NCBI RefSeq assembly: GCF_963576615.1
Contig: NC_088711.1
Coordinates: forward strand, 11,278,869 to 11,342,868
DNA from: Watersipora subatra
Lineage: Eukaryota > Bryozoa > Gymnolaemata > Cheilostomatida > Watersiporidae
DNA: 64,000 nucleotides
Direction: 5' to 3'
Below are positions 1,474-60,100 of this stretch, one piece after another. The position numbers were made by a program, and so were the translations under genes. The notes below the pieces were generated by a model that was given only the letters and a program-made list of their open reading frames with translations, was not told the DNA's origin and ran no database searches. How positions within the stretch are numbered: the first letter of the stretch is position 1; every line of letters begins with the position of its first letter.

Positions 1474-4400
1474 ACCAATCAGAGAAAAGTCAAAGATTAT
1501 TTCATGCCACTCATTGGATGGAGCGCCGGAAAAGCCTCAGATGGTTTTGGACATTGACAATATTCTGAGTCAAAAACCTCAGGTCAGTCCCTTTATTACT
1601 CCCTTAACCTACTTGTTATGCTGGTATCAGTTGTGCATGGTTTATCTGGTTGTATATGATTTCCCGCTTCTCCATAACTCCACAAAATTTTATCTCTCGC
1701 TTTGTTTGCGTAAACTATGTCTGCCTTTTAATGCATGAAAATTACTATAATGATATGAAGTGATATACGAACTACATATATGACAATTCTTATTTAATTA
1801 ATATCGGAGGCAATTTTTGACCCACAAAAGGGACATAAAACAGCTTTTAGTATTTTTTCCGATTACTGTAATTTGATTTGCCACTTTGTGTAACTTCTGC
1901 CTTTGGTCACTGGAGTACTTCCTGTGATCAGCATTATTCTAATTTACTAAAGCACATGATAAGTCGTTACCTGTGTGTTGCAGAAAATCTCTCCACCAAA
2001 GGGGAGTTCTGTTGTCACTATCACCAAAGCAGAACAAGAGGCAAAAAGGACCGGCATTGGAAAAAGAGAAGACAACCTCTTCCTTCAAAGATTTTTGAGC
2101 GGCGAGCACTGCTTGCAAGGAGTAAGTGTCTTTTGGTTCTCTCTTTACTTCGTCAAGCTTATGCTGCATTGCGTCAGGGCCGTATCCACCTGTTTGAAAA
2201 TGGTACTGCGGGTAGAGTCCGAGAGGGGTGCCGATCGCCCTCTCGATAGGGGGGGTCCAGGGGTTCTCTCCCTGAAAATTTTTTAGTGTAACTAGTCAAA
2301 ATGGTGCAAATCTAGGACACTTGGCTCCTGATGGGGCACATGTTCTAACAGCAAATTTGACATTATAAACCAGTTTTCTAAATATAAAACTTTATTGAGA
2401 TTGTTTATTGAGATTGTCTTTAACAACGTTTATTAAAAATATAATGTGAATGAAAGCTGCTAAAGGGGTTGGCCACAGCTAGCATGACGTAGAATTATCA
2501 CCGGGTACAACGCTGAATGGTGTAGGAGACGAGTAGTCTCCTATGAAATAATTTAATTAAATAATATTGTAGAGTTAAAAAGTAAAATTAATAGAGCACC
2601 ATGTCTAAAATAATGCACTTATACTATAGTCTATAATATTGAGCAAGTAGTAGATTTAAATTTGAGCTATGCATGTTACATGCATAGCTCAAACTTAAAT
2701 TTATTTCAATGAACAAAATCTTTTGGACATAGATATTCATTTACATATGTACTACCACAAAAAAAATACAACCATGTACAATTGTCCCTGTATGAAATGC
2801 TTGGAAGCATTCCTTTCGGTGGAGTCCAACGCTATAATGTTACCGTGCATGCTACCATAACGATTGTTTTTCTCTGTATATTCCAAGTATAATAAAAGTC
2901 CAAAAGGTTTACATCACTTCTATCATCTGAATTATTTTTATTCTGATCTTACAAAAAATCACTAACGATCGCAGGATCAAATAATTTTTTATTTCACCGT
3001 TTCAAAAGTCGATATGGGCTGGTTTTTCCAACTTTTATTCTTTTCCAAGGAGTCGCGATTTCTTTAGCTTTTAGCACAAAGCAACACCTCTCAGATAATC
3101 GTTTCATATTGTAATTCATCGACTGATATCTTGTTGATGATATTTAAAACTTACTAGCAATCATATCCCTTGTTTAACGTGACTAGTCGACAGCTTTATA
3201 AACGGCGACCGAACGCGGCATAAATGTCGTTTCCTCACGCAACCGATAAACGACAATTTTGGTCATTTCCCAAGCCAAAGCGTTAACATCAAGCAAAAAT
3301 GACGTGAATTCCGGGATTTTGAGCCTTAAAAAATGGTACTGTCATGGCAGTAGCTGCAGTATAGGAGGATACGGCCCTGCATTGCGTATGTACATACATA
3401 CATATGTATGTACGTACATACATATGTATGTATGTAAATATACATATGTGCATAAGTTTGTTCAACTCATCCTGCTGCTTCCTGTTTCAGGCGGCTGGAT
3501 GGTGGAGTTATGAATTATGCTATGGTAAGACTGCTAAACAGTTTCATGTAGAGGCAGGAAAGCGAGTTACAAACATATTGCTTGGCAAATGGGACCTTGA
3601 TGCCCATCTCACCTGGATCTCTAAGCACCCTTCCAAAAATATGAATAAGCACAATACTAGAAGGTAGGTATATCGCATCTAATTATGGGCTTAGGAGGCA
3701 TTTAATTGTCTGTTGTAGTGCTCGAGCTTTGATATTGCTCTATAGACTACACTACTGTAATATTGCTCTATAGACTACACTGCTGTAATATTGCTCTATA
3801 GACTACACTGCTGTAGTATTGCTCTATAGACTACACTGCTGTAATAATGCTCTATAGACTACACTGCTGTAATATTGCTCTATACACTACACTGCTGTAA
3901 TATTGCTCTATAGACTACACTGCTGTAATATTGCTCTATAGACTACACTGCTGTAATATTACTCTATAAACTACACTGCTGTAATATTGCTCTATAGACT
4001 ACACTGCTGTAGTATTGCTCTATAGACTACACTGCTGTAATAATGCTCTATAGACTACACTGCTGTAATATTGCTCTATACACTACACTGCTGTAATATT
4101 GCTCTATAGACTACACTGCTGTAATATTGCTCTATAGACTACACTGCTCTAATATTACTCTATAAACTACACTGCTGTAATATTGCTCTATAGACTACAC
4201 TGCTGTAGTATTGCTCTATAGACTACACTGCTGTAATAATGCTCTATAGACTACACTGCTGTAATATTGCTCTATAAACTACACTGCTGTAATATTGCTC
4301 TATAGACTACACTGCTGTAGTATTGCTCTATAGACTACACTGCTGTAATATTGCTCTATTAACTACACTGCTGTAATATTGCTCTATAGACTACACTGCT

Positions 4401-7400
4401 GTAGTATTGCTCTATAGACTACACTGCTGTAATATTGCTCTATAGACTACACTGCTGTAATATTGCTCTATAGACTACACTGCTGTAGTATTGCTCTATA
4501 GACTACACTGCTGTAATATTGCTCTATAGACTACACTGCTGTAATATTGCTCTATAGACTACACTACTGTAATATTGCTTTATAGACTACACTGCTGTAA
4601 TATTGCTCTGTAGATTACACTGCTGGAATAGTGCTCTATAGACTACACTGCTGTAATATTGCTCTATAGACTACACTGCTGTAGTATTGCTCTATAGACT
4701 ACACTGCTGTAGTATTGCTCTATAGACTACACTGCTGTAATATTGCTCTATAGACTACACTGCTGTAATATTGCTCTATAGACTACACTGCTGTAATATT
4801 GCTCTATAGACTACACTGCTGTAATATTGCTCTATAGACTACACTGCTGTAATATTGCTCTATAGACTACACTGCTGTAATATTGCTCTATAGACTACAC
4901 TGCTGTAATAATGCTCTATAGACTACACTACTGTAATATTGCTCTATAGACTACACTGCTGTAATATTGCTCTATAGACTACACTGCTGTAATATTGCTC
5001 TATAGACTACACTGCTGTAATATTGCTCTATAGACTACACTACTGTAATATTGCTCTATAGACTACACTACTGTAATATTGCTCTATAGACTACACTACT
5101 GTAATATTGCTCTATAGACTACACTACTGTAATATTGCTCTATAGACTACACTGCTGTAATATTGCTCTATAGACTACACTACTGTAATATTGCTCTATA
5201 GACTACACTGCTGTAATATTGCTCTATAGACTACACTACTGTAATATTGCTCTATAGACTACACTACTGTAATATTGCTCTATAGACTACACTGCTGTAA
5301 TATTGCTCTATAGACTACACTGCTGTAATATTGCTCTATAGACTACACTGCTGTACTATTGCTCTATAGACTACACTGCTGTAATATTGCTCTATAGACT
5401 ACACTGCTGTAATATTGCTCTATAGACTACACTGCTGTAATATTGCTCTATAGACTACACTGCTGTAATATTGCTCTATAGACTACACTGCTGTAATATT
5501 GCTCTATAGCACTTTCATTCACATTCTACTAGAATTATTACATAACATGACAGTCTTGCTTGTATATGTGCCCTAGCGTTTATTCTTTGGTATGTAACTC
5601 CCTGGTTATGAGTCGTCTGTGATGTGTAACACTGTTTTGAGTCATCTGTGATGTGTAACTCTCTGGTTTTGAGTCATCTGTGATGGGTAACTTTCTGGTT
5701 ATGAGTCATTTGTGATATGTAATTCTTTGTTTATCCAATTTAATATGATCGACATTATTCCATACTTTTCCAACACCATGTGCTATAGTCTATAACTTGG
5801 CTCGTTCTTTGTGTGACCTCAACCTTACGGTATGATCATATTATGTTCATTTATTTAACATATCAGCTGCATACTATTTGTCGAATATCTTAGTTGTCAG
5901 TTGCTTCAGTCAATCTGCAGTTACTCGTACTCTGGTGCGCAAGGTGGAGATCATTAAGGTTCCAGCTCTGCTTAGTAGCTGCATGTTTCATTGTTGAATA
6001 CATGTACTGTTATTTAATCAAAAGTAATATATTTTACAGATATATATCACAATTTTACTCTGAAGGAGATTTCTGTGATGAAATTAAAGCAAAGAGGACA
6101 GTGGAAGTGAAGCTGAAGTTAGTAGAAATATATGTTATGATATTGTAAGAGAGCAGCAGGGTTGCTTGTTTATGAGTGACTGTACTAGCAATAGGTTAGC
6201 TAGGTCAATTTTGTCACCCAATACTGCAAGATACTCTTCAGTATTGGGTAACCTGTCTCTGTGGCTGCTCTATATGAACGGCACCTAGGAAAATTAGTAG
6301 ACTGTTAATTTTATGCTAGTATTTCTGATCAGTGTAGGAGCAAGGGATGTTAAAATCAAGTTACAAGATAAAATTGCAAGTTGAAACGAATATTTCCATT
6401 AAAATACGCTGCAATTTGTCTAATTCGTTCCAAGGTATAAAACTTTCAAGTGTAATGTATGTTGAAGGTATTACTCATACTCAGTTTTAAATAATCATAC
6501 ACAATTATTTCTGTACATCAACCCTGCTACCAACTCTTCTCTCCCCACAGTACAGTGAGTCTATGTTACTGTCTGACAGCTATATCAGAATTGTCTATGG
6601 AACTACTAAGGGGCCATAATTTCTGATGTTTCTTGTATTGTTCTCTCAGATGATTATAGCTCTAACAGTCATGTTTAATGGTATGACTTGCCTCTGTAAG
6701 TATGATGCCTCCTACCCTATACCGATAGGTATTGAAGAGCTAGTTTACTGCTTCTTCATGCTAATTTTTTCAGCATTTTGTCACATTGGATAATTACAAA
6801 AATTACATATGACTTGTTCTCATTGCAAACTTGCAAAAGCTATTTTAATTGTAAGGCGAGTAGTAGTACAGACTTAAGTCATCTAATACCTTGGACTCAC
6901 AGACTTAAGTCAAAGATATTAGAGTCAGGAAGAATAGCGCTAGATTTTTTTTAATGGTATTTCAAACTTTATACATTTTAAATTACATCCCAGTAAAACA
7001 GTTTAAATCAAATAAACATTTCAAATTAGTAAAATTGTTTCTCAACCCTCTAATCGTTTGGACAGTTTTTTCTGTTTAGATTTGTATCAATTGGCGTTGT
7101 AAAGATATTTGCTAGTCTTAAGACATGTTTCTCTATTATACACATTATTTCAGATGTACCCAAATGGGAGGAAGCTCACACGCTGTAGCCATATATTTAG
7201 TAGAACCATCTACTTGTCAGTACATTCTCACGGTATGTCATTGTAACTTAGTTTATTCAAGTACTATCTGGTTTTCAGTAACAGATCTTCTGGTGGTAAA
7301 TATTAAAGTTGTATCTGTATGTATTATTTTACATGACTAAGTTTTGTCAATTTTTTGCGCTTTACTTTCAGGTGGAATCTCCTATTTTGTGTGATCTAGT

Positions 7401-38500: not shown

Positions 38501-41500
38501 TACCATGCCAATGAGAAATTCCCTTCATCCAAGCACCCTTGCTGCACCAAGTGTGCATTCCACAGGTTTGGAAAGTGCCCGGCTAAATTCACAACCTGCA
38601 AAGCATGTGGAGAGAGAAGGTACTGAGCAAGATCTACACTCCGCAAGAAGCCGGCAGGCAAGCCGATTAACAAGGTTGTATCAGAGCAATGACTCAGAAT
38701 TTGCCAATGGCTTATTTTTATGGTCCAAATCTTTCTGACTACATGGCTTTAATGGATATACACTCGACAGCATACAAGAAACCGAAAAAGCATGGTATTG
38801 CAACCTGAGCTCCAATGACATAAAAATATGTTTTAAAGTTGACACAGAGGCCTCTGTGACAGCTCTCCCAGTGAAAAGGTCTAGAAAGTTAGGAGTGTAA
38901 AGACAACTTCACTTCAGAACGCAACCAAGAAGCTGATAGCAGCAGGTAACCAAAAGCTTAATGTATGCAGATCTGCCAAGATACCACTAAGGTATAAATC
39001 CAGAGAAACTAGAAAACATCTACTTTATCAGAGTGTTAGTGACACCTTTGCTCGGCAAACCGGCCATATCAAGATTACGGATGATAGAGTTCATTGATGG
39101 GACCTCCACTGATGGATGGATCGAGAAATATCCAAGATTGTTTAGTGAACTGGGTACTATAGTAACATGAGCGAACATTATATCGAAAAAGGATGCAGAA
39201 CTGTTTACTCACGCTGTACCACAAAGAGTAGCTGCAGCAAGAAAGGAGTCACTGCATCAGGAGCTGCGGCGAATAGAGGCCCTAGAAGTTATCGGAAAAG
39301 TTGAAACCCCCACGGAATGGTGCGCACCTTGTATTGTGGTCTCAAAGGAAAATAGAAAAATCCAATTCAGTATTGATTTCGCCAAATTGAACGAATCTGT
39401 ACTTCGGAAAGTCCATCAACTACCCACCATGGAAGAGACACTCAGCAACTTAGAGAATGCAGAATACTTCAGCAAGATGGATGCAAACAGCGGGTCCTGG
39501 CAGATGAAGCTAAATACTACATCTCAGAAACTAACCACATTCATCTCGGCATTTGGTAGATATTTCTGTAAACACTTGCCTTTCGGAATCTCATTAGCAC
39601 CAGAGAGTTTTCAAAGGGAGATGCAAAGAACACTTGCGGGTTTCTGCCAGATGTATAACATTCTAGTGCACGCTCCAACCCAAGAAGAACATGACATGAT
39701 ACTGAAAAAAGTATTGGTAAAGTTGCAGGCCGCTGGAATTAACTGTCTGGAACCCAGACAAATGTGAATTCAGCAAGAGGAGTATCACGTTTCTTGGATA
39801 CGTCATTGGCAAACATGGGATATATGTAGACCCTGAAAAAATGACAACTGTACAAAATTACCCGGCACCATAGAACAGAAAAGAACTAAGGTGATTCTTT
39901 GGTATTATCAATTATATTGGGAAGATCTCTCTTTTCTTAGCAACTGACAGGTCTGCCCTGAGAGAATTGCTTCTGAAGGATAAGGAGTGGATTTGGGATG
40001 CAGATCAGGCCAAACAGTTTGCAGGACTGAAGGATAAACTGGCGTCACCCTTACACGCTATAAGTTGGAAGCAGAAACGATGGTAAGCACTGATGCCTCG
40101 TCCTATGGCCTTGGTGCTGTCATAATGCAGAGGGTTGGAAATGCCTGGAGGCCTGTAGCTTACGCGTCTAGAACAATGTCTCCCGCTGAGACCAAATATG
40201 CCCAGATAGAGGGAGAAGCGCTCGCAATCGTTTGGACATGTGAAAAATTTGACTTTTATCTGGCAGGAAGAAAGTTTTACATTGAGACCAACCACAAACC
40301 GCTCATTTCAGTTCTGGGGAAGAAGGAATTATCCAGTTTACTGATTTGAATTCAGCGTTTCCGTTTAAAACTAATGGCATATGATTACGATATTTCATAA
40401 ACGCTTGATCAGAAACTGGTTTTGGCAAATGCCCTGTCACGCTCACCCCTGCCAGGTCATACAATGGATGAGAAGAATGCCATTGTGAATGTTTTGTACA
40501 TTTATTTCTGTGCCTTGCCATTTCTGTTATAGATGGCTGTGGTGTTGAGTAATTCTATTGTTAATAACCTCAATGTCCCTAATATTAATACCGTATCAAT
40601 CAAAGGGCTTAATTGGTGTCAGGCATCCAAATATAGTCTCCCACCGAAACAATCTGCGCGAGAAACACACATTCATCATAATTGGGCCACTAAGGTTCAC
40701 CACTAAGCACCAGTCTAGAAAAGAAGTGGTTTTCGTAGAAACCAATCTGTTGTCTGTCAAGCAAAGCTTTGAACCTTTCTATAACGAACTACACTTTCTG
40801 GACCTTAAAGGTTGACTTGCAACAAAATTCACATTACAGTTATTTGGTATCAAAAGATTCATCATATCTTACTCTGCTGTGTTGTAGGTGCAAAATATGC
40901 GGAAATGTGATTACAAGGTCTTAAAAGCTCAAAAACGAACAGTTAATCGCCCCCATCACAAAACCGTCGTAGATTAGAATCTCTTTCCAAAATGGCTCAA
41001 ATGGGACATAGTTGTACAAGATGGCTTCTGTTTACACTTTCACGCAACCTCATTCATCGAAATATTTTCACAAATATACTTCACTCATTCAATAAAACCA
41101 TGTCTATTGTTCTTACGCGTCTATTTCATCATCATTGTAATGCTGTCATTTTGAGCACTAATATCTCAAAACCTACCATAAAAATTTGTTTAATTTTTTT
41201 AACCTTAGCTCGAAGTAGTGCATATCATCCTCTGATAAACATGACGAGCCTGTTGGCCACCTGTGATAGTCGAAAAATGCTGCAGAAATTATTCGCACCG
41301 TTTGGCAGGAAGTATGGGTCCCATGATCAGATTACGACTAGACAATAGACCAAGCCGAAACAAAACTGTAAACTAGCAAGCGTCTATATTTGGTAAGGGC
41401 TCTTCGGTAAAACCCAAAGTGATTGTCATAAACTAGTGCTACGAGAAGTTTGATATTGAGCCTTTTATTGGCCTTTCAATTTACATGAGAACATCACGTG

Positions 41501-43969: not shown

Positions 43970-45903
43970 ATGATAAATGATAGTGAGCAGCCTTTTGCTC
44001 AGAGTTCAAAGCAACCAGATTTAAAAACATACGCTGCCCGTCGAACTATGGTAGCCACAATGGTTGCTCACGCTCTCGTCTTCACCTTCACTTGCATGAT
44101 AGCGTACAGTGTTGTACCCGGCTCGAGTGAGTTAGTTTACACCGTATGCAGTACTAGTTATATCCTTGATGTCTTTTGTTTGACAAGAAAAAACGAGACT
44201 TGAAAATGTAAATATCTCAATTGAGATATTAAGTCCATCAACTGATCGTACTACAAGCTATATGCAACATTATTCTCTTTGTAGGTTTATTTTCGTGGCA
44301 CCCGTTCCTCATGACATTAGCTGTGAGTACTATTTTGTATTTTCATTCCGTAGAGCATTTCAGTTTCATAGATCTGTACGCATGTGCCTAATAGCTTTGA
44401 AGAGGAAAAAGTAGCATTATCTCGCATAAATTTCATATAGTTTACAAATAGGCCTACAATGTGGTAAATTCCAAATAGGTTCAGCAGCAATGAGTACCCA
44501 GTTAAGATGAACTGTGAAGAAATAGGGCAGCCATCTCAGCACCATTTAATTAAAGCTTCACGATTTCCAAAAATCATGTGAGGATTCGATATTGCAAATT
44601 CGCAATATCGAATCACGATACAAGTATACCACGACTCATCTATTTATAGACTGTTTGCAATATATCACGCTAGTATTATTATTGTGTAAAAAACTTGTTA
44701 ATATTTATTTATTTGTACATTTTTTTTAACTTAAAATGAAACTGTTTTGTTTTCGTGATAATTAAGAAACATTTATTTCATAGATGCTCGTGTCTGTGAA
44801 TGGCCATGGATTGAACGTATTTTAGGGCTAGAAGGCCTCTGCGTTTTAGTTCCAGTATCACTCACATTGAAAATCAACAGGCGTGAGATGAACCGCCATT
44901 ACACGATTAAATTGTTCATTTGAATGACGATATCTTTTTAAATGGTGGCGATTTTCAAATTGTCTACATTCAAAATCGCCACCTAACAATTAAATCGGCA
45001 TATTGTGAAGCTCTACTTTTAGTAGGTCACATGATTAGTAAGTCACATGATTAATGAGTGCACTATGTTTCATCATCATATTAATCATGCCAACCGTCTT
45101 TAGGGATTCATCATCCCCCATTCGACTAAAAAAAGTATTTTCAATACGCCTTAATTTATACAATGCTTTTAAGAAATACTCACAAGATGCTGATGGGTTG
45201 AGCAAAAAAATTCTGTCAAGCAAACGATACATACCCTGTTAATATTTTTCCTGCATTATTCGAATTTGTGCTCTTCAAGGGTGTAGAAAGTTATAGTAGA
45301 AATTTATCATAGTATAGAGAAGTTTTTGTAGCATAGAGAAAGTTGCTGGAATAGAGGTCGATGAGTTGTTATTAAGTTCTCTATTCATTTTTGTAGTTTG
45401 TGCTCTTCATGACTGAGGGGATTCTCATGTTTTCTCAACAAAGCTCTTTTATTCGAGGTGATAGGAAGCTACAGGTCCGCTCTCATTGGGTATTTCAAGT
45501 GATGATGCTGACCTGCGCAATTCTGGGATGTATGGCCATATTCACCAACAAGAATAATAACAATGTTGCTCATTTTACAACTGCGCATGGACGACTGGGT
45601 GCAATCACTGTCTTCTTAAGTTGTGGCCAGGTTTTGGCTGGTATAGGCTTACTATATCCTAATTTGATCAAGAATTTTGTTTCGTTAGGCCAAGCGAAGA
45701 TATATCATGCAACTTTTGGTTTGCTGAATTATACACTTGTCACTTTGGATTTGAATTTTGCAATGAGGTCGGATTGGGCTGTAGCCAACATCACCGGCGT
45801 GGCATGGTATGTTTGTGTGGCCTGCATCGACATCTTAGCTCTCGTAATTATGACTCAGATCACTACACACTATCTACCTCGTATGCGTCGGCAACGTCAG
45901 TAA
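43970..45903 (+). CDS. CYB561D2: Cytochrome b561 domain protein, CYB561D1/D2-like (3 exons)
   Basis: Transmembrane di-heme cytochrome b561, a family that transfers electrons across membranes from ascorbate to ferric iron or monodehydroascorbate. Exons 43970-44126, 44285-44322 and 45397-45903, with introns in phases 1 and 0, give 233 aa (human CYB561D2 has 222). Six hydrophobic segments are visible. The four heme-ligand histidines are His58 (SLFSWHPFLM), His95 (RSHWVFQ), His129 (TAHGRLG) and His169 (KIYHATFG). The ATG at 43970 is the first in frame and leaves a short polar N-terminus before the first membrane helix. AATAAA follows at 46002-46007. D1 and D2 paralogues cannot be separated with confidence. 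Confidence 0.9.
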
Positions 45904-48110
45904 AGGCTAATTGCATAATAGCTATGTTATGATCTGTGTACATCTCTAGTTATAAACAATTGTGATTCAAGTATTTTTAATTTGATTGATTTTTATTATA
46001 GAATAAACCATCATGAGTCCATACAATTATCATTCATGTGTGTGCTTATTCATGTTTATGCATTTGTATAATTTGGTCACGCATATGCGAATGCATACAA
46101 GTCTGTTGGCGAGTTCTTTCTTGGCGAGTTCTTTCTCAAAACATTGTTAAAATAGGTGCAATCTTGAACGTTTTAACAACCTGTTAGCTTACATGCTGTT
46201 ACGCGTAAATCAATATGGGCGTGGTTTAGAAGTAAGTTCTGATCGTTATTTCAACGCACGTGGTATTTGTTTATGTTTTAAGAAGACGTTAGTTTGTGCT
46301 GAAGTCCTATGTCGGTTTTGTATATTTCTAAAGCCGTGAAACATATGGGTCGTGAATTCCATTGACTGCGCATGTCTGGTTGGAGCTAACGTTTGTTAGT
46401 TACACAAGAAGGAAAAACGACATTAGTTTCTTTGTCATTATCTTTGTTTCGCGAATTCTTAACGCTAACTATTGGCTCACATCTTGCTTTGATACAATTT
46501 TTTACGAAAAACTTTTTTTTAATTTCATCTCGTGGCACTCTGTGTTGGTATTAAAAGTCGCGTGAAGTTTCTTACTGAATGATACAAGCTATTTGAACAC
46601 TTCTACAGTATTTCAAAAGGTAGGTAATTTTTTTATTTAGGCGTCTGTTGGAACTGCGTAATATTTAGTGTTTTTGTTAATTGTTACTTAGTCACTAATA
46701 TTTTTATTTGTATCCTCAAGGCGAACAATCGTTTAAGCCTACTTTTCACTGTGTCTTTAGCATAGTTGTTTCCGTAGACCTCACAGAAATCATCATACCG
46801 CAGTGAAATTGCTAGCTGCCACTAGTCAAGTATATTCATTGTTTAGTTATATTTTTTGTTTAGCCAAATTGTGTTAGGTCTAATGTTTTGTCGGATCGCT
46901 TAAATATCCCATTTCATTTTGACCTAATGCTCGACTTAGAACTACGATGATCTCAGCGTCAAAACACAAACCTTGGTTGTATCATCATGTTAAATTATTT
47001 TATATTTTTGGCTTCATTGCTGGTGAAAAGAGTAGTTAGCATAAACAAACTTTTATAGATTCAAACAGAGGGCCGATTGAGAGGTGCTGACATAGCTAAT
47101 GCCAATAAGTCTGCCACCCAATTATAACCAAGCTCGACGATGAAGTGCTGTTTATATACTCATTATTTATAGCTTCATTCATTTTTAGCATTACATATGA
47201 TGACCGTGACCCGCATGCTACATAGAATAAAAATGCATAGTTTACAGTTAAACACATTGTTGCAATAGTTAATATAGATAATTTACTATTATTCTACAGT
47301 AAACTATTCTATATGTACTATAGAATAATCCAATATAGAAAACTTGGATTATTCTATAGTAAATTTGATTTCATAGATCTAGTTTTTTGCAATATTTAAC
47401 TTTCAGCTCACCGCTTGTATCCCTTGAAAAGTGGATCAGTCTGATTTACATTACTATAAATTAAATCATGAATATTTAGTTTCTATTAACAGTGCTATAT
47501 AACTGACCGTATCCTAAGGCTTAACCAACACTGACAGCTCAACTTTTTACAGTGTAGGATCGACATAGACCTTGTTTTCAACATTTCATTGTTTACATTT
47601 TTCACTTAATTCTTTTGTCAAATTTTTCTTAAAATATTGATTATATGTGTAAAACTGGACGATCTATTATGATTCTCAGGTATAGTTTACCAATGTTTTG
47701 CGTCATTTTTGTCTGACTATTCGAATCATTAACCTTTTTACATTTGTGAACATTGTTGATTCAATATCATGTATATCTTCAATTGCATAAAGTCATTAAA
47801 ACCCTAGTGAATATACTTTAAATATTCTTAGGTTCTCTAAATTTCAGCATTGAAGTTGACTCCGGATTGAAAACTTGATAACACCTTAGTCTCTGCAAGA
47901 AAATGGAACATTGACTTCGATCTCTATTAAACTGAAATTGGGTGCTTCTTGATAAAGGTATTTTATAGTTCATTTGACACGTTAGCTGTTATTTATGTTA
48001 TGAATGTTGTTATATAATACAGCAGTGGTTAAGGCACACATAAGTTGGCTATTGCTGCTCAATTATGCATTGTTTTAGTATTTCAAATCCTACTTGCATC
48101 GTTTTATCAG
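45904..48110. other. Intergenic region, CYB561D-like to CK1
   Basis: It holds the CYB561D-like poly(A) signal (AATAAA, 46002-46007) and AT-rich sequence with small palindromes near 47270-47360 (TATTCTATAGTAAA-type). The CK1 promoter and at least one 5' UTR exon should be here, because the acceptor at 48110 opens the coding exon 18 bp before the ATG. I could not place that exon. No other gene seen. Confidence 0.5.
46002..46007 (+). terminator. Poly(A) signal for CYB561D-like gene
   Basis: AATAAA about 100 bp past the stop at 45903. Confidence 0.65.
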
Positions 48111-48128
48111 GACTGACCTTACAGAAAT

Positions 48129-51100
48129 ATGGAGCTGAGAGTTGGGAATAAATACAGGCTAGGAAGAAAGATTGGAAGCGGATCTTTCGGGGACATATAC
48201 CTAGGTTAGTATTTCGGGGACATATACCTAGGTTAGTATTTCAGGAACATATACCTAGGTTAGTATTTCGGGGACATATACCTAGGTTAGTATTTCAGGA
48301 ACATATACCTAGGTTAGTATTTTAGGGACATATACCTAGGTTAGTATTTCAGGAACATATACCTAGGTTAGTATTTCAGGAACATATACCTAGGTTAGTA
48401 TTTCAGGAACATATACCTAGGTTAGTATTTCAGGAACATATACCTAGGTTAGTATTTTGTGAAGCATATTAGGATTTTCTGAATTCTGTGAAAAATACTT
48501 GAGTTATAATATCTCATTTGCATTTCGGTTGCCTGACTGTGAAATCAATTGTTTCATATTTCTTTCGGGTTAGATGTTTTTATATAATGTTGATTGTGTG
48601 GTTGCGGTTGAGCAAGAACTCTGTGTTTGCTGCTTTCTCAAAGAGACGTCTTCTTGAGTTGCTTCAATATCTGAATCAATAATATTCTCGGTTGTCTTAG
48701 AAAGATGATGCTTTGTTCTTAGTCTACTCAATTGAAATAAATTGCCTCCTGCTTCTTTGTCGCCAATCTAATTCACACAGTTCATTCTCCAGTACTTTTC
48801 AACTTTGCATCCATGTATCATTCACTCTCCTATCAGTTTTCATTTCTCCATCATGATAGTTCGTTGCCACTGGCTAATCAATAATTATCGGTGGTTGTAA
48901 AGATGACTGCAACTAGCCTCCCTATTTGTCTATTCTACACAGACTAGTGTTGTTAACTGCTTGACTTTGTAGGTACGGATGTATCCACGGGTGAGGAAGT
49001 AGGGGTTAAGCTCGAGTGCGTTAAACTCAAACACCCGCAGCTGCACATTGAGAGCAAAATTTACAGAATACTTCAAGGCGGAGGTAAGGTTTTAGCTGGT
49101 ACCCACTCACAATGTTATTAACTCTGTTTAGTCAAAATGTGGGAGGTGTAAGTCAGATATTTGTGTATAAGATTTAGGATTGACTTGCTGGATCCGGTCA
49201 CACCAATAATCTTTTCTCTTCATCCCATGCTACTCCAAGTACACATGTTGCAAATTTTAGCAAAAATATTAGCTAGTTGTGTGCAATGGATTTTAGATTT
49301 ACTTGCTTCTAAAGAGGTATTGCACAAATTTTCTCTGTTGTGTATATTGCACACATCATTGGTCACAATGCTTTCTTTCAATAGCATATTAATAAAAAAG
49401 TTGATACGTTTCTAGCTTTTTGCATCACACCGCCTCATTGATTAACACATCGTGAAGTCCAAACTGTTTGACTCACCTAAGGAAATGCATGATTCGTCAA
49501 AATTGCCTCATAATCTAAACAGAGAGTTACTGCTACATATAAATGTGTAAATGCTGATATTTGACCCAAACTTGAATAATGTCAGCTATGGATTGACAAC
49601 TCTCCACATGGCAAACAAAGAGTCCGTGAACTTATGCGGGTTTGTCGAATGGGCTTGGCGCTCGACTCAGACAGCCTGTTGACATCTGATTAGTGACTAA
49701 CAATCATAGGCCTGTCTGTATAGCTCATCAGAAGATAATCTCATTCCTATGCACAGCCTAATGATTGATGGTTGCTAGTAGGAAATGAGGCTAGTTGCTA
49801 GCTGAACGATGAGAACTCCTTAAAATATAGTGTTTGTGTTTTACTGAGTTAGTAAGACTGTACATATATATATCATATGCGTTAATTGACCGGGATGCTG
49901 CTGCTTAAGATTCTATTTGTGAAGCCTCCAAGCTATCTACTCATTCGTTCTATTTCTGCGTAGTGACATTACTACAGACTGGCGGTCATTCTTGTCTAGG
50001 CATCCTCTCTTTATCATTCACTTTGTTCAAAATAGACCTAGTTATATGACCTCACTCGCACCATGTACTCATCTTTACATATTAATGACTGCAGTTGGTA
50101 TTCCGGCAATCAAATGGTGTGGTGCTGAGGGTGACTACAATGTCATGGTTATGGAGCTGCTTGGACCAAGTCTAGAGGATTTATTCAACTACTGCAACAG
50201 AAAGTTTAGCCTCAAAACTGCGTTGCTGTTAGCGGACCAACTTGTAAGTAGTGTTTCTATAGTGTACATTTTGGGTAGATTCGGGTTCTAAATCTATGAG
50301 CAGCCTTCATAACATTTTACCTTTTATAGTGTGAGGATTTGTCAACTATTTTATCTGAGAGATTTGCAGTCAGATTTACTCTTTGGAACATCAGATTAAT
50401 TTAAAATTTTAATTTGAAGCTGTTCTAGGAAAAAATCTCAAGTTGTCATACATTCAAATATGCTCTTATGCCATCTTTGGCCATATCTGCCATTTTGTAA
50501 TAGCATTTGATCATGAATTTCTCCCGGAATGCTTTCACATATGCTGTTTTCTCACAAGGCCTTCTATGCTTTAGGAGTTTGCTAAGAACAAGCTCAAATA
50601 TTTGATTTTTAAGAAATTCAGGTTTCATTTATTGACCAAGTTCATCAAGCCTCTTTGTACCATGGGATTAATTGTTTAAAATCTTTAAAAGGTGTAGGCG
50701 AGATCTTTGCATTGTCAGGCACGTTGAAGCTTTTTGGTAAAAACAGCCTTTCAGTTGCCTTGTGGTATCAGCACTTAATATTAATTTTAAGTATTGACAT
50801 CAATATTGATTAGACATCACAACTGTTGTATGAGCATCAAAAGCATTTAAGGCTGGTGGTTCTTTTTTTGATGATTTTGAACTAGAATGCATTTCTTACT
50901 AGCAGTGGGAACATATCTATTTGTTTAAAAGTTTGTTGTGAAAAAACGAGAATCACTATTAGTAGTGTTGGTTCAGTCTAAAAGAGTGAGGTAGGTATTG
51001 AGTTAATTTACCATTCATTTATGGACTGTTCTTTGTCATTAGCAGATAGAACTCCCAGGGCTACCAGCTCAGAGACATTAAACACATCTAGTGTGGTATC

Positions 51101-54100
51101 AGCAGCTCTTACATTACAAATGAGTAGCTCGTATGCCATAGAGTTATCTTTACCACAGTTATCTCTATCTTATAGTCCTATCTACAGTCTTTAATCTTAT
51201 ACAGTAGACGCCTCTGCAACGTAAATAATCTGTTCTGGTAATGCTTATGTATATGGATTTTATATTATATGAACAATAAAATATATGTAAATAGTCTAAT
51301 CCATTCCGAGATTTTCCTAAATTCACCGAGTCGGCCCTTCAAAAAGGAAAAAACTTAACTTAACTACTTAATTTAATGACTGTACAGTAATTGTAGTATT
51401 ATTGACTTATATCGACAAGTTTTTTACTTTTTCTTGTGACTTTCGCTCTGTTTATGGTCCATGATTGAGGCTATTTTACGTGAGGGGCGCGCACACCTGC
51501 AATGCCCTTTTAGATCTATTTCATTTTTTCTGCACAGTAAGGTTTATGCTGCAAATAAAAAAGAAAAAAAAACATTTTATATGCTTGAAATAAAACAAGA
51601 CAAAAATATATCTTTAATATAACAAGTACAGTTTTTGTCCGTCATTCCAATGCCATGGTTAGAGGTTATAAAAAAGTTTGCTTTCAGCGAGACTACAACT
51701 CGTGACTTTCAGCTTGATAGACCCACACTAACACTTGCAACGATTGATTGCTGTTTGGTATTTATGAATAATAGCGCAGCTTCTTATTCCCTGTGCTTTA
51801 TTGGCACGCCTGACCATCTCTCACGTCACACTGTGAGGCTACTAGCGTATATAATATAGATATTCCTTTACAGCAATGTGGAGAAGACAAAATTTTCAAA
51901 GCTAACTAGGGGACTCCTCGTTATTTGAATCGAGTTTGAGAACTTGTAACGACTTGACGCTTTGTTATATGGAATTTATTTTGTAATCTGAAGCAAAAAC
52001 TTCACATAAATTCTTTTGTTAAGTGGAGTTTACATAAAAAGAGGTTTACGTTATTGTACCGTCTACAGTACATTGCAAGTCGATAGTACATTGCAAGTCG
52101 ATAGTACATTACAAGTCGATAGGCCTTGCATGTTTTTTATCCTAGAGAAGATTTGTCATTTTGTTTAATACAGTCCAGCCTTGGTTTATGACCACAATTT
52201 GTTCCTGATGGCTGTCCGAAAAGCAATTGTTTGAATTCAAAAACATTTTGATGACCCAGTTAGCAGTTGAAATATGAATTAGAAATGTCAAGCAAAGGCG
52301 GATTGCTTTTCCGGTTCTTATTTCACATTCGCACTTCACCATTCTAGCTTGTGTCAGATAATTGGTGCATACCAATAGCAAGTCAGGAACTTTTCACTCT
52401 TCACTTGTTCACTGGTGCGCATCAAGCTGGCCGCCAGCCAGTTATTCACAGCACACTGGCTATACTGTTATGAATATCACTCCACGGTCATTCTTAATGT
52501 CAGCTTGGCTTGCGGCTCCCTTTCCTCGTTGGGCCTCAAATTGTACGCTATCGTTATACAATCATTAGTTATAGCACTTATGCACTACAAGTAGGATATT
52601 TCTCATTAATCATATAGCAGCTGAATTGGGCTAGAGAATTTAGAATTGCTCGAATGCTCAATTATCATACTCGGCTGACTAGAGAATCATTAGGTACCCC
52701 TTACCATTGCTTCATAGTTAGTTGTTTGTCTGATATCATAGGTAAAAACACTACATATTATTGTACCAGTTAGTCAACATCTTGCAACAGTGGGCAATTA
52801 TAGGTCCAAGTTGATCATACTCCGAATAACTCTCACTCTTTATTTCTTCAAAACCCTGTTGATTTATAGGTTATTTTTACAGTTTGGCTCTTGGCAAGCA
52901 GCATGTGTGACTTAAATAGCAAATGACCTGCTTGATTTTGCAATATAGCCAGTTAACGATGTGGTGGTGTTTGTGTATTTATTTATAGTTGCTTTTGACG
53001 TGTAAGTTTAGAGGTTTCAATTTATCACCAAATTAATCTCTCTCCTTGAGTTATTTAGTACGGTAACTGAAAAGCTCACTCAGTAGCATAATTGGCAACT
53101 GTGATTGGTCGAATGAAACCATCCCCCAGAGACAAACAGTTATTTTCGTGGACCTTGACTACTAGATATTTTTGGGCAGGTAGTTAGTGAAACAAGCCGT
53201 ATTGTGACTCAATGCAGTGCAGCATTCCTTCTGCTAAATTAGGAGGGATAGTTTTGTTGAAGTCATTTTATTTAGTGCCAACTTCTCTGTGACTTCGTGT
53301 AATATATATTACTACTAACTGCCGTAAATAGGTATTTTGAGAGACTAGATATTATTTATAATTCCTAGTAATGAAACCATTTTATTTTTTTCTTCTTTTT
53401 AGATAAGCCGTATTGAATACATTCACTCCAAGAATTTCATACATAGAGACATTAAACCAGATAACTTTTTAATGGGTCTCGGTAAAAAGGGCAACTTGGT
53501 ATACGTAATAGACTTTGGACTAGCCAAGAAATACAGAGATAGTAGAACACACCAGCACATAGCTTACCGCGAGAATAAGAACCTGACCGGCACAGCGAGA
53601 TACGCCAGTGTCAACACCCACTTGGGCATCGGTGAGTGCAGTTAAAACATGTTATGACCTTGTTCACTAGTCATATCAATAGCAGCTTGCCAATGGCAAC
53701 AGCAGGTTACCATTGATGGACAGCCTTTTGTGAGCAACTAACAGCTTCATGTGAAAGCCTGGCTACATACACCAACAATATACATAGTCTACATGTAGTA
53801 TAAATTATAAATACTTTCTCTGGCTGCATGTCCTGACGCTGTCATTTGCTGCCAAATCACGTGTCATATAGAAAAGTAGGTTGACCAATGAGAATTGGCC
53901 TCATTCATGTGAAGGTCATGGCATCCTTGGTGGATTTCCCATTACCATTATTATCTAATATGGTTCATCAACATTTTGGGATAGCAATTACACTTACAAG
54001 TGCAGTTGTTTTTATTGCTCTACAGGTTTCATTGAATGTTCCAATTCACCCCAGTCTCAGTACATATCTATTACAAGTGTTTATACATAAATAGTCGGTT

Positions 54101-57100
54101 GTGTGAATCCCTTGTCATCATGCAAATGCGAATCTCCTATGAAATCTGTTTCCTGTTGCAAATAAATAACATGAAATCGCGATTTTCCTCATTGGTAACC
54201 AACTCTTTCGTCCAATCACAGATTTATCGGTTTCCATTTTACTTATGTCGACGAATGTATTCATTCACAGACACAATGTATCAACCACACATTGGCCACA
54301 CTAATAATATACATGAATTTCGTTGGTGTGATCAGGCAGGCCCTTCTGTGTCTGTATACTTGTGTGCATGTTTCTTTAGTAGCTATCATGCATTGCGAAG
54401 GAGAATGGCTACATCACTGACACCAATTTAAACTATATGTTCGGCATTGAATTCCTCTTATTGTGGACACGTTTATAGTAGTGTAGGTATATTGTGACGA
54501 TGATTCTATATCCCATCACGTTAAGAGTAGTCTGGTCAGCTTCGTGATTGTTACATTTTGACAAGGTTGTTTTAGGTAAATATCTTACCATACCGATTCA
54601 AATCTTTGAGCTCCATCAAGAACCGTAGCATACTGTTGCTACAAGGCACGTCAAGGCCGTACTGGCTTTATCAACAGTAAAAAACATCTTGCGTAAAGTG
54701 AACCATCAGTGATATTTTAAGCGAGCCATGTAAATAAAGCAGGACGATCTTGATCCATATTGTAAATGTAGCTTTTTCTGCTCATAATCACTATTTATAC
54801 TGTCTCTATTGGCTACCAAAATTTGATTTTCCATTCATGATTATGAATTAACATGTCATGCAGCAATCGACAAAGCGGCCTTATGACCTAAAGAGCAATG
54901 CCTTGCAAAACTTTCTCCTCATACTGAATAGCAAACTCGTCATGTCTCTTGAGCCGCTAGCCCCTAGAATCCTAGATGGTCTGCTTACTACCGGACTACA
55001 AGGCTCACTGCTTACTTTTTTTAAACTTATCATTTGACACGCTCAGTGGTTCTCGCCAATATGGCTCCCCTAAGCAAACAAGTTGTCTGTGTAACAACTG
55101 GTATCAATGGTTTATTAAACCTCAGCTGTGGTTATTGCCTAAACTCATCAGCTAGTTTGATCTTGCAAGCTTAGACCAGGTCACACACCGATGAAATCAT
55201 AGTATAGATATTTGCTGCGGTTATACAAACTGATGCCACCAATAGTGATAGTTAGGTTGACCAATGAGAATTGGTCTCGTTGGTATCCTTTCTGGATTTC
55301 CATTACCATTGTTGAAGTATCGGCAGCATATAAGTCATCTAACATGGATTTTCGTTGACTTGTCATAGCAATTATGCCTTTTTTGCATTTTAATATATTT
55401 TCTCAACGAAACAACATCACAAATCAATGACGAAAATGATTCAAGTACAAAAGTAGTTTGATTTCATGAAATTAATCAGACGCGCAAAAATGATTGGGAA
55501 TTTTGCAGATTCAATTATCTAAAAGTTAATCTGATCTGAACTTTTTCATCGACTGGTCCAATTTATACAATGTCTTCGTACATCTTTTACAAGTTTGAAC
55601 ATCTTTGTCCGTATATAAATAGTTGTTTGGGCCATGTCCGAAAGCGAACTTTACATGAAATCAGCCCATTTTGAAAGTGGATAAAATAGAATAGATATTA
55701 TATCAGTTGAGAATCAACTCATTGGGTCAATCATAGGCGCATTGGTTTTTCCCTGATGTAGACCACTTTGTTTGTTTAGACACCACCATTGACAACGCCG
55801 TCAGCTACCCAAATGATGTGCTTTGTCAGTGTTTATAGTCACTCCGTTAGTGTTCAGCCTAGAAGGAATAGTATCAGAAAAGGGAAGCTTTATCAGTTAC
55901 CTGAGTTGATGCCTGACTTACTTATCATCTACAGTGATTGTGCTGGTGCTGCAGATCACGACAAAGAACTCGGGCTATCATTGTAGCATTGACATATTGA
56001 CATTAGATCAATTTTGTGTGCTAGTCTTGTGTGTTGTCAAGGCGATGTTCTCGTATATTCTTTTCGCTATCCAGTACTATGGAGCATTCTTTGGTCACAT
56101 CATTTAACTATCATAAATAAACATGGATGTTGCCATGACAATGAATCTCAAGGTTTCGGAAAAGGTTCGTGTATATCGTGCTCATTTGGTAATATTGATA
56201 GACCTAATCAGTTATTGAAAATGTGTGGTGGAACAATTTTCAAAGGTGTTGTAAATTGTATCCTCAGGTGCTTAACTTGTTTTATTATTAGCCATTCTGT
56301 ATTTAGAACGATGCAAAACAAATGTGATATCCCTAATGCGTAAGAATAACAAAAATCATCTAGTGCATATGTGCAGAATATGAAATATAACAAATATATA
56401 ATGTATAATACACATAAGACCATGACAATCTTACTTTAGGGTCATCTACTAGACTGCACCAGATAAAACTGATTGATTACTTTGAACTGATTGGTAGCTG
56501 ACATTATAATGATTTTGTATTGCGTAGATAGTGTTAAAACCCTCCTTCGTCGTTATGAAATGTGTTAAAGAAAATGTAGGTGAATATGTAACAACACAAG
56601 GTGGTGATACAATTTTCTACGAGCTTCATTAATACACACTCTTTTATCCATATATATTATATATATTTATATTACCCATAAACTTGTTGATTGTTATATC
56701 TGGCCAGTCTGCAATGTAATTTATCCTCACCTCTGTTACATCCTCTCTTACTCCCTCTAAATGATAAATCAGTCCATGCTAGGCCTACATTTTTGATGCT
56801 GTGAGGTTTGCTTGTGACCAGCAAGTAGCACTCACAAATATTCATACGAAATTAGCCTGACGTTGCAGTAGGTTCCAAACATACCATGTCTAACTAGTAA
56901 CATATGCTAGATGTGGTGATACATTATTGCCACTTGATGAGTTGACCTACTATACAGCTGTTCAATCGCCTTCTAAAAATTGTAATATTTCCTATACAGA
57001 GCAGAGTAGGCGAGACGATATGGAGTCGCTTGGCTATGTACTCATGTACTTCTTGAGAGGTAGTCTCCCTTGGCAGGGCCTTAAAGCTGCAACCAAAAGG

Positions 57101-60100
57101 CAGAAATATGAACGAATCAGCGAGAAGAAAATGGCGACCCCGATCGAAGAATTGAGCAAGGGATTTCCGTGTAAGAACTCACATCTTTATAGAAATTGTG
57201 GCATCGGTGTCCCTGAACGAATATCGTCGTCTAATATAACAAGCTATGTTGTTACTCAAACCTAGTGCTGAGCCGCCACAGACATGCTATAGGAGATCTC
57301 CATTCACTTATATCATTTCATAGTCTGGCTTTTGTTTTGAGGAAAATATGTTCATAGTTACAATAAGATATAGATTTGACGGTTTTGTGTGATTGTTTGC
57401 TTGCAGCCGAGTTTGCCACTTACCTAAACTTCTGCAGATCTCTGCGGTTTGATGACAAACCTGACTACAGCTATTTGAGGCAGCTATTTAGGAATCTGTT
57501 TCATAGACATGGATATACATATGATTATGTCTTTGATTGGAACATGCTTAAATTTGTAAGTACAGGACTATTTTAGCTCAGTTTGATGTTAGTTTTGTCA
57601 GTAAAATTCTATGCTAAATGATTTAGCATTACGCTCAATGATCCGTGTTATGCATGCTCACAGCTATTTTTCCAGCACGTTTTTTGACATGATGGGTTGC
57701 TTATGCTGATGCAATCGATTGGCACATAAAGCCAATTCTTTTTATCAAAAACAACACTTTATCAACAGTATAAGTCTAATGCAAGCCTTTCTTGCTGACT
57801 ATGCAGAGTGTAGTGAACCATCTTTCCTTGAAATATATATTGGGAAGTTTTCAGCGAATGCAGGATATCCACTACCAGCTCACAGAATTAGCGGGATCTA
57901 CATGTATATGTGGCTATAAAAAATTTTCTTTTGTCAAAATTAAAAAAGAGAAGAAAAAACGTTCAAATGGCAAACGTCTCGACTGTCTGATTGACACTGC
58001 AAAGGGCTCTTCTCTTCATATGTACAAACTTGGTGAAATAAACCTGCTTCAAATGTATAAGCATAAGCCTTGTGACATGCAGCGTGCTCTCGGGTTATGA
58101 TGACGCTGTTATACAATTTTTTTCCCCTACGATGTAGAACACGATGATTTTTCGCCCTTTTCATACAAACTATTTTTTGCCACACAATATTAACAAAAAT
58201 TTCTCTCAATATTCGAATTTGGCAGTCAGTGTGCTGCTTACGTCGGAATAACAGATGTGGCGATCTGCTATTCGCTGAAATCCTTCTAACAACGAATGAA
58301 AGAGATACGATGCTCGATCTCCCGCAGTTCGGTATTATTCGTTATTAGTTGTTGTGAAAACGAAACCGGAAACAGATAGGTGATGAAATTGTAGCGATAA
58401 AAAAGTTGATGATCAGTGAAATAGTTAAAAATACATACTAAAACTTAGCTTTAAGTATGTGTTTAGTAAGCTAAAGTCATTAAGTTAAGCTGAACGTTCA
58501 TTTTATACGTCTGCCTCGAAGGTAAGAACTCCCTACGGTACGTACTGCACATAGTACATTGTAACGTTACATTTTATTACAGATAATAACTACTAAATAT
58601 AGTAAAGTGTAGGTAACTATAGTTAATAAGGTTAACATACTATTTTGTTACAAAGTTTTAATATACATGTACAGTATTAAAATTTTAATGTTTTTTACTA
58701 GGGGTGTTTGCGTTAGATAATTACTACGGGTTTTCATACCCTTTATGCGACATTTTCGCCTTATTTTGCCAACACTTGAACAAATTAATGTCGTATAGGG
58801 AGGGTCCACCGTATTTATACATATAAATATATGTGTATATTTAAATTTAAGCATAATTCAAATGAGCATAACTCCAAAGTATAACGGCTACCAGAATCTG
58901 TATCATTTAATTGCATAATTGCATAAATTCAATAATATGGATGACTTTTTTACAGAACGCATGTCAACATATTTTTTCTTTATTTAAATTTATTTTGTAA
59001 GTTATGCGTGACTGGCTGCTCTGTAATAAGCCATATCACAAGTTTATATAGATCAGGTAGAATACTAATGAAAACCTATTGTACTGGTAGCCTTATATTT
59101 ATATCTTTTTCAAGATATTCCAGTAGCTGTAATGTTCATCCTGGCTTAAATACTCTTAGTACGCCTGTTCTGCCATTTAGGCCGGTGGTACCTCAGCAGC
59201 AGCCGCATCTCACGCTTCAGGACAAGAAGCATCTGGCTCTAGGCAAGTGCACAGCGGGTTGACTAGACCACATGGTGCTGTTGGAGGAGCGCGGCAGATG
59301 ACTGCTGCCAATCCTATTCACAATGGTATGGTTACAGCTGCCTGCTATCACAAACCTTTCATCCCTGTCTTGAAGGCCCAGCATGAAACTTGAGTCAGGT
59401 TAAATGCCATTTGAATGCAGTCCTGTTGGATAAGTGACATACTGTAAAACCTCTAATTGAACGCCATGGCGCTCTATTTTTTAACCCTTTCTCTATAGTG
59501 GCGGTAAATTGGAGGTGGTGTTCAAATAGAGGCCTGCGTTGTATTTTTCAAATGGCTCGTCAGAATTTTGGGAAGATAAATTTAGCCCTTATCACCTATA
59601 TTTTGCCCTCTTTTGTCAGTGGAGCGGTATTAAACCTTTTGGATGCAATAAATCTGTTAACTTACCTCCAACTTGCCAAAGATCGCTTAATAAATATGCA
59701 TTGAGAAACAGAGAAATACCTCTACCAGTTGATATCTGTTGCTTGCAATTAACATGTGATGATATTATAGCTTGTGTATTGCTTTGCAATTGGTTGGAGC
59801 GTTCAATTTTTATTTCAGCTTGTGTACTACTCTGCAATTGGTTGGAGCATTCAATTTTTATTTCATTCTAAATTTGAAGACATATTTTTATTTTATATTT
59901 AACAGTGTTGAATAAAAGCTCATTGCACTCATTGATATGTTTGCTACAGTTTGTAGTCAGAACTGGCTTTATACGCTTGAAGTTGTCTCTTTGTTATTAA
60001 GTTTCATAGCTTCATAAATTAAATTATTTTGATCCTGCTATTGTTTATTTTACTTTAAAAGCCATTTCTGCCATTTACGTTTACACAATCTAAATGTGTG

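Follow-up and report, generated by a model that had tools for sequence, protein, structure and literature searches.

It has long been asked how the spliceosome selects one 5′ splice site when several identical ones are present, and a casein kinase 1 (CK1) gene of the bryozoan Watersipora subatra raises the question with ten such sites at the end of a single exon. The gene lies in a stretch of 64,000 nucleotides (NC_088711.1, positions 11,278,869 to 11,342,868 of the forward strand), hereafter the window, in whose own numbering the coordinates of the locus are given; there a 27-bp minisatellite straddles the boundary between exon 1 and intron 1 and repeats the donor in every unit. Which of the ten donors serves the gene, and does the array do anything for it? 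From a sequence-level analysis of a single assembly, we consider it likely that the array is a tolerated mirage minisatellite, probably neutral, whose exon-side donor is the one used. Mirages are tandem repeats spanning exon-intron boundaries that were named in the Adh3 gene of amphioxus and also occur in its globin genes (PMC3087553).

Ten identical donors in register

Tandem Repeats Finder (TRF) reports a period of 27 bp with 10.1 copies, 0% indels and a score of 490 over 48185-48457, and direct read-out resolves this span into ten gap-free units at 48185..48454 on the forward strand. The array sets in 20 nt inside the first coding exon and otherwise extends into intron 1; each unit joins 20 nt of exon-type sequence to 7 nt of intron, unit 1 being the exon boundary itself. 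Within 48001-49000 GTTAGT occurs ten times, first at 48205 and then in 27-base steps through 48448. Across the ten units 24 of 27 columns show no variation, among them those of the entire donor CCTAG/GTTAGTA (the slash marks the exon-intron junction), and TAG/GTTAGT is identical in all ten. Variation at columns 4, 5 and 8 distinguishes an exon type (E, TTTCGGGGAC; units 1, 2 and 4), an intron type (I, TTTCAGGAAC; units 3, 5 and 7-10) and a third type (M, TTTTAGGGAC; unit 6), which shares the A at column 5 but lacks the one at column 8. The units run EEIEIMIIII; within this order an E-I pair recurs, a pattern expected of slippage or of unequal exchange involving more than one unit.

A first-pass annotation of the window had described ten tandem donors that arose from the exon 1/intron 1 boundary, with a unit length divisible by three and with copies 2 and 4 identical to the exon copy. 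TRF and the unit read-out bear out this description: unit 1 is the boundary and the other units match it, the period is 27, and both copies are of type E. As for the span that it gave, 48185..48458, the start is correct, whereas the last full unit finishes at 48454. A DNA search of the 784-Mb assembly, of a type that skips simple repeats, matched the CK1 stretch once and found no second place.

Only the first donor preserves the kinase

The peptide joined from exons 1-3 matches CK1 delta and epsilon in PDB with E values of 1.2e-64 and 8.9e-64, against 2.6e-51 for the best alpha and 2.5e-32 for the best gamma entry, and these matches, with a frame that stays open over seven exons, identify a kinase domain of the delta/epsilon type. 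The exons (48129-59325) join as one open frame of 343 codons, a count for the traced part, which ends short of the 3′ end of the gene; over the first residues 263 of 294 are identical to human CK1 delta. On the forward strand, the first coding exon (48129..48204) ends in phase 1, intron 1 (48205..48972) spans 768 nt, about one third of them array, and translation shows exon 2 (48973..49083) completing Gly 26; exons 3-7 (50095-50243, 53403-53631, 57000-57170, 57407-57555 and 59181-59325) keep the kinase domain open throughout. When each of the ten donors was spliced in silico, only donor 1 (GTTAGT, 48205..48210) yielded the kinase. Donors 2-10 (GTTAGT at 48232 + 27n, within 48232..48453) each leave GGT TAG in the message, and splicing from any one would end the protein after residue 26, as the first-pass annotation had foreseen. 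As the sole frame-keeper of the ten, and given the homology of exon 2, donor 1 is presumably the authentic site.

We posit that the spliceosome would take this first, exon-side donor, in which case the extra copies would leave with the intron and the protein would be unchanged; splicing from the exon-side copy would be the necessary and sufficient condition for a tandem duplication containing a donor to be silent. Transcripts that leaked to donors 2-10 would be targets of nonsense-mediated decay. If the first donor of an identical set wins and leaked transcripts are decayed, then the array, which slippage may have produced, would most likely be neutral or nearly so.

The same consequences for the reading frame could be put to use by a poison-donor tuner, in which nine decoys compete for U1 and set the fraction of CK1 transcripts that goes to nonsense-mediated decay, copy number setting the output. 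Every alternative donor and acceptor-like site tested leads to an early stop: acceptor-like TTTCAG (six units) or TTTTAG (unit 6) between 48239 and 48433 on the forward strand is followed by a potential 14-nt microexon and a donor, and inclusion of the microexon gives a stop after residue 29 in seven of seven cases. The predicted pairing with the U1 5′ end is the same, -6.8 kcal/mol, for all ten donors. The published U1 footprint (23 nt of exon and 12 nt of intron, as given in an excerpt of PMC6002489) covers 35 nt and thus exceeds the 27-nt spacing, so that neighbours should exclude each other. In a lattice model, the occupancy of donor 1 among ten is 0.38, 0.72 and 0.83 at fugacities of 1, 10 and 1000, compared with 0.5, 0.91 and 0.999 for a lone donor; the exclusion model would also have the two end sites most occupied and an odd-even effect of copy number, which is a prediction and not evidence. 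Against the tuner, chance would often put in-frame stops in decoys. Within its own gene donor 1 is of middling predicted strength (-6.8 kcal/mol, the six other donors ranging from -4.4 to -10.1). We regard such a tuner as distinctly unlikely, and the genomic comparisons below bear on it further.

RNA structure was also considered as a mechanism and rejected. The array RNA folds better than its dinucleotide shuffles (z -3.74, with 0 of 100 shuffles as good), and in the predicted fold the self-complementary ACCTAGGT pairs between units; however, of 60 arrays built from column-shuffled units 14 match or surpass its folding, and pairing differs little among the ten donors (mean unpaired 0.20-0.28).

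A paralogue with the intron but without the array

Searched with the CK1 peptide, the same genome yields a second copy of the delta/epsilon type on C1 at 45.35 Mb, in which six exons are recognisable. Its intron 1 has the same position and phase as in the array gene, exon 1 ends at a single donor, CTAG/GTCTGT, and there is no repeat array at this boundary. The array is therefore not required in this type of gene, and intron 1 is older than the array. These observations separate the CK1 array from two reported kinds of duplication. An excerpt of PMC3443670 describes intron gain by tandem genomic duplication of AGGT, and the CK1 segment likewise carries AG/GT, but no intron was gained here; intron gain by tandem duplication was rejected, since the paralogue has intron 1 at the same position and phase without any duplication. 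In human genes of segmental duplications, internal tandem repeats at exon-intron boundaries (mean unit 30 bp, 4 copies) alter those boundaries; as far as the excerpt of PMC2812944 goes, these cases are primate-specific paralogues with novel introns, whereas the CK1 intron is older than its array and is common to the paralogue.

The word GTTAGT, by reading, is the exon 3 donor of the paralogue too. The paralogue has minisatellites of its own, one of 12 copies of 40 bp that lies downstream of the exon 3 donor at a distance of 21 nt (L034/L024, C1 about 45.35 Mb) and one with 31-bp units some 55 nt past exon 6 (L035); neither crosses a donor.

Donor arrays in unrelated genes

Comparable arrays stand at the donors of other genes. 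In a DNMT1-like gene (L039, G000:C1:1460000-1461000, minus strand), six identical AAG/GTGAGT donors follow one another at 25-nt spacing in an array that begins inside the coding exon; units 1-3 match the exon end, units 4-6 have one change in common, and decoys 2-6 all read VSCY-stop. Joined from the first donor into the following exon, the peptide gives a gapless alignment of 68 residues with DNMT1 (PDB E 5.4e-31). In CK1 and DNMT1 alike, homology passes precisely from the first donor into the exon that follows; conservation therefore suggests that a functional protein needs the first donor. Directly after a RhoGAP exon (L056, G000:C1:53473550-53474350, minus strand; Pfam 6.4e-14) lies a 26-bp array whose six units each open with GTAAGTC, giving at least six donors at offsets 0, 26, 52, 78, 104 and 130 within the fetched stretch. 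This repeat starts at the donor itself, not within the exon; donor 2 would shift the frame with no retained stop, and donors 3-6 would retain a stop after nine residues. With units of 25 bp in DNMT1 and 26 bp in RhoGAP, a multiple of three is not essential to such arrays.

Two further arrays begin on donors of exons that are less firmly assigned. In L051 (G000:C1:29809750-29810600), the last 12 nt of an exon and its donor lead a degenerate 23-bp array; the exon is probably that of a nuclear receptor (thyroid receptor alpha is matched only weakly, with E 0.05, and there is no Pfam match), and all seven later GTAAGT sites would retain a stop after five residues. In L037, the array starts on the donor of an open 169-nt exon of no known family (no Pfam match), and each of the eight later donors tested would retain an immediate stop.

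Arrays of the same layout in unrelated genes thus count against a poison-donor tuner, as does the array missing at the paralogue boundary. In view of these two observations, a middling donor and ordinary folding, the suggestion of the first-pass annotation that the array tunes CK1 output is unsupported, and nothing found in the sequence supports a regulatory role. Neutral slippage, its alternative proposal, is the better fit, and mirages are a published precedent for it.

By eye, the 28-34-nt units of some arrays (L036, L037 and L038/L045) resemble complete short introns (GT...AG) set head to tail with zero-length exons, and those of L036 contain GCTAAC, which is branch-point-like. This appearance in L036, L037 and L038 would suit recursive or stepwise removal, in which CTAG/GTTAGT is a juxtaposed acceptor and donor, each cut takes a multiple of 27 nt out of the CK1 array and restores the donor, and the final mRNA is normal; AG/GT does stand at the same place in each CK1 unit, with TTTCAG or TTTTAG upstream in seven of them. 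The acceptor comes without a long pyrimidine tract, however, a single 27-nt step is shorter than the usual intron, and the process would be superfluous because donor 1, spliced directly, leads to an identical mRNA. We consider it extremely unlikely.

The recurrence of such arrays also bears on whether the CK1 repeat could be an assembly artefact or an allele private to the sequenced animal. The comparison drew on one assembly, and mirages do vary in length, two haplotypes of one gene having 6 and 3 units (PMC3087553). Yet the CK1 units show ordered sequence variants rather than perfect copies, and comparable arrays occur at several separately sampled places of the assembly, which makes an artefact or a private allele very unlikely.

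Another repeat, seen by eye at L036:1130-1501, has 20-bp, TTTCTATGGAGTCATTGTAG-like units (12 exact GGAGTCATTGTAG) in the intron that follows an exon resembling GLOD4 (Pfam GLOD4_C, 1.7e-07 over 29 residues); these are possible acceptor-side repeats.

How often minisatellites fall on donors

Twenty 10-kb stretches sampled from C1-C8 contain 23 arrays (period 10-60, at least 4 copies), which cover 11,723 of 200,000 bases (5.9%), and clusters of at least four GTTAGT occur in 3 of the 20 stretches (L006, L013 and L018). The window itself holds seven arrays by the same definition; in TRF its positions 3732-5509 are a 28-bp minisatellite of 63.5 copies with 96% matches. Elsewhere in the window, open frames recognised by eye resemble a Gypsy-type reverse transcriptase (39171-40346) and, upstream of CK1, a cytochrome b561-type membrane protein (45397-45900).

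For a census of arrays with at least three donor words, the upstream ends of 25 arrays from the first genome places listed were inspected. Of the nine AGGTNAGT arrays listed, which lie in the first 3.5 Mb of C1, L039 (DNMT1) and L037 have the donor of an open exon at their start; by eye, no exon of the array strand stands at the array start in L036, L041, L042 or L044, the sequence of L038/L045 and L043 stops short of the upstream end, and L040 is ambiguous. Two of the twelve AAGGTAAGT arrays listed start on an exon donor, L056 (RhoGAP) and L051 (the probable nuclear receptor); in the remaining ten, the longest open stretch ahead of the first AAGGTAAGT is 31 codons. The four CAGGTGAGT arrays examined of 18 listed include no clear exon-donor case, L058 being a possible one. 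Exon-donor arrays thus account for 4 of the 25 examined, and homology makes two of these certain.

Are donor words favoured by such repeats? Three AGGTNAGT words at 10-40 nt spacing give 9,813 matches, compared with 1,708 for the reversed pattern. An enrichment of AGGTNAGT triples in arrays is not shown by these raw counts, however: composition-matched controls give 6,573 for GATGNTGA and 29,300 for its reverse, and 1,705 for TTGANGGA and 4,531 for its reverse, and large arrays dominate the matches. Distinct arrays among the matches listed in the first 3.48 Mb of C1 number 9 for AGGTNAGT, 2 for GATGNTGA (to 3.42 Mb) and 4 for TTGANGGA, a hint of AGGTNAGT excess that is suggestive only; full donor words, set against reversed controls only, give 776 vs 21 for AAGGTAAGT and 355 vs 113 for CAGGTGAGT. 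With arrays left aside, 264 kb (26,038 bases masked) contain 49 occurrences of AGGTNAGT, which ranks third of 210 permutations, whose mean is 27.8. Perhaps some 40% of these words are real donors, in which case 4 of 25 does not exceed the expectation under random seeding. Since real donors are common words in their own right, such seeding suffices to explain arrays on real donors. On the simplest reading, minisatellites arise at any place, and those that take in a donor persist because they are harmless.

A bolder generalisation would hold that this genome seeds donor minisatellites so often that arrays of identical donors are a normal part of its genes, governed by a strict exon-side-first rule and by U1 self-exclusion on a lattice finer than its footprint, and that copy number provides a weak, evolvable leak into nonsense-mediated decay in CK1 and DNMT1. 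We think this rather unlikely.

Relation to known repeats at splice sites

A human minisatellite with multiple splice donors, that of IFI6 (G1P3, 6-16), was reportedly described by Turri et al. in 1995 (NAR 23:1854). In an excerpt of PMC4526556, two of its downstream repeat units serve as donors and three mRNA species result. CK1 is similar in that minisatellite units supply donors at an exon end, but the downstream donors are used in IFI6, whereas in CK1 they would give a stop. Protein isoforms of the IFI6 kind were rejected on this basis: donors 2-10 stop after residue 26 and leave no kinase isoforms.

The amphioxus mirages are closer. Many of their copies, though not all, have AG/GT signals, and regular splicing is reported to be undisturbed (PMC3087553); an excerpt of PMC3902484 extends the list by troponin C, with PGBD5 similar, again with undisturbed splicing. 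The CK1 array likewise spans an exon-intron boundary, has AG/GT signals in 10 of 10 units, and with its 27-bp unit lies within the Adh3 range of 10-72 bp, although it is shorter than the 150-160 bp of the globin mirages BflGb6/BflGb9 (PMC3087553). It is another case of this known kind. Unit identity across the boundary, the paralogue boundary without an array, the commonness of minisatellites and the recurrence at DNMT1 and RhoGAP donors all argue for a tolerated mirage spliced from its exon-side donor.

Several points weigh against this interpretation. Undisturbed splicing is the amphioxus report, whereas the CK1 case is known from sequence and the frame argument, from which the use of donor 1 is deduced. 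In exon 1 of human oestrogen receptor alpha, two comparable donors lie 33 nt apart and the intron-proximal one is normally used, according to the excerpt of PMC6002489; such a preference, if applied to the CK1 array, would be harmful. Finally, a donor that is invariant in ten units while other columns vary is compatible with constraint, although with three varying columns this proves little.

Implications

Conserved genes of one animal thus provide natural cases of identical donors, with ten in CK1 at 27 nt, six in DNMT1 at 25 nt and at least six GTAAGTC in RhoGAP at 26 nt, and in CK1 and DNMT1 the choice of any donor except the first would truncate the protein. If it is true that only the first donor is used, then the exon-side rule and the tolerance of mirages would hold in another genome; if leakage to the later donors does occur, copy number would be a measurable dosage dial.
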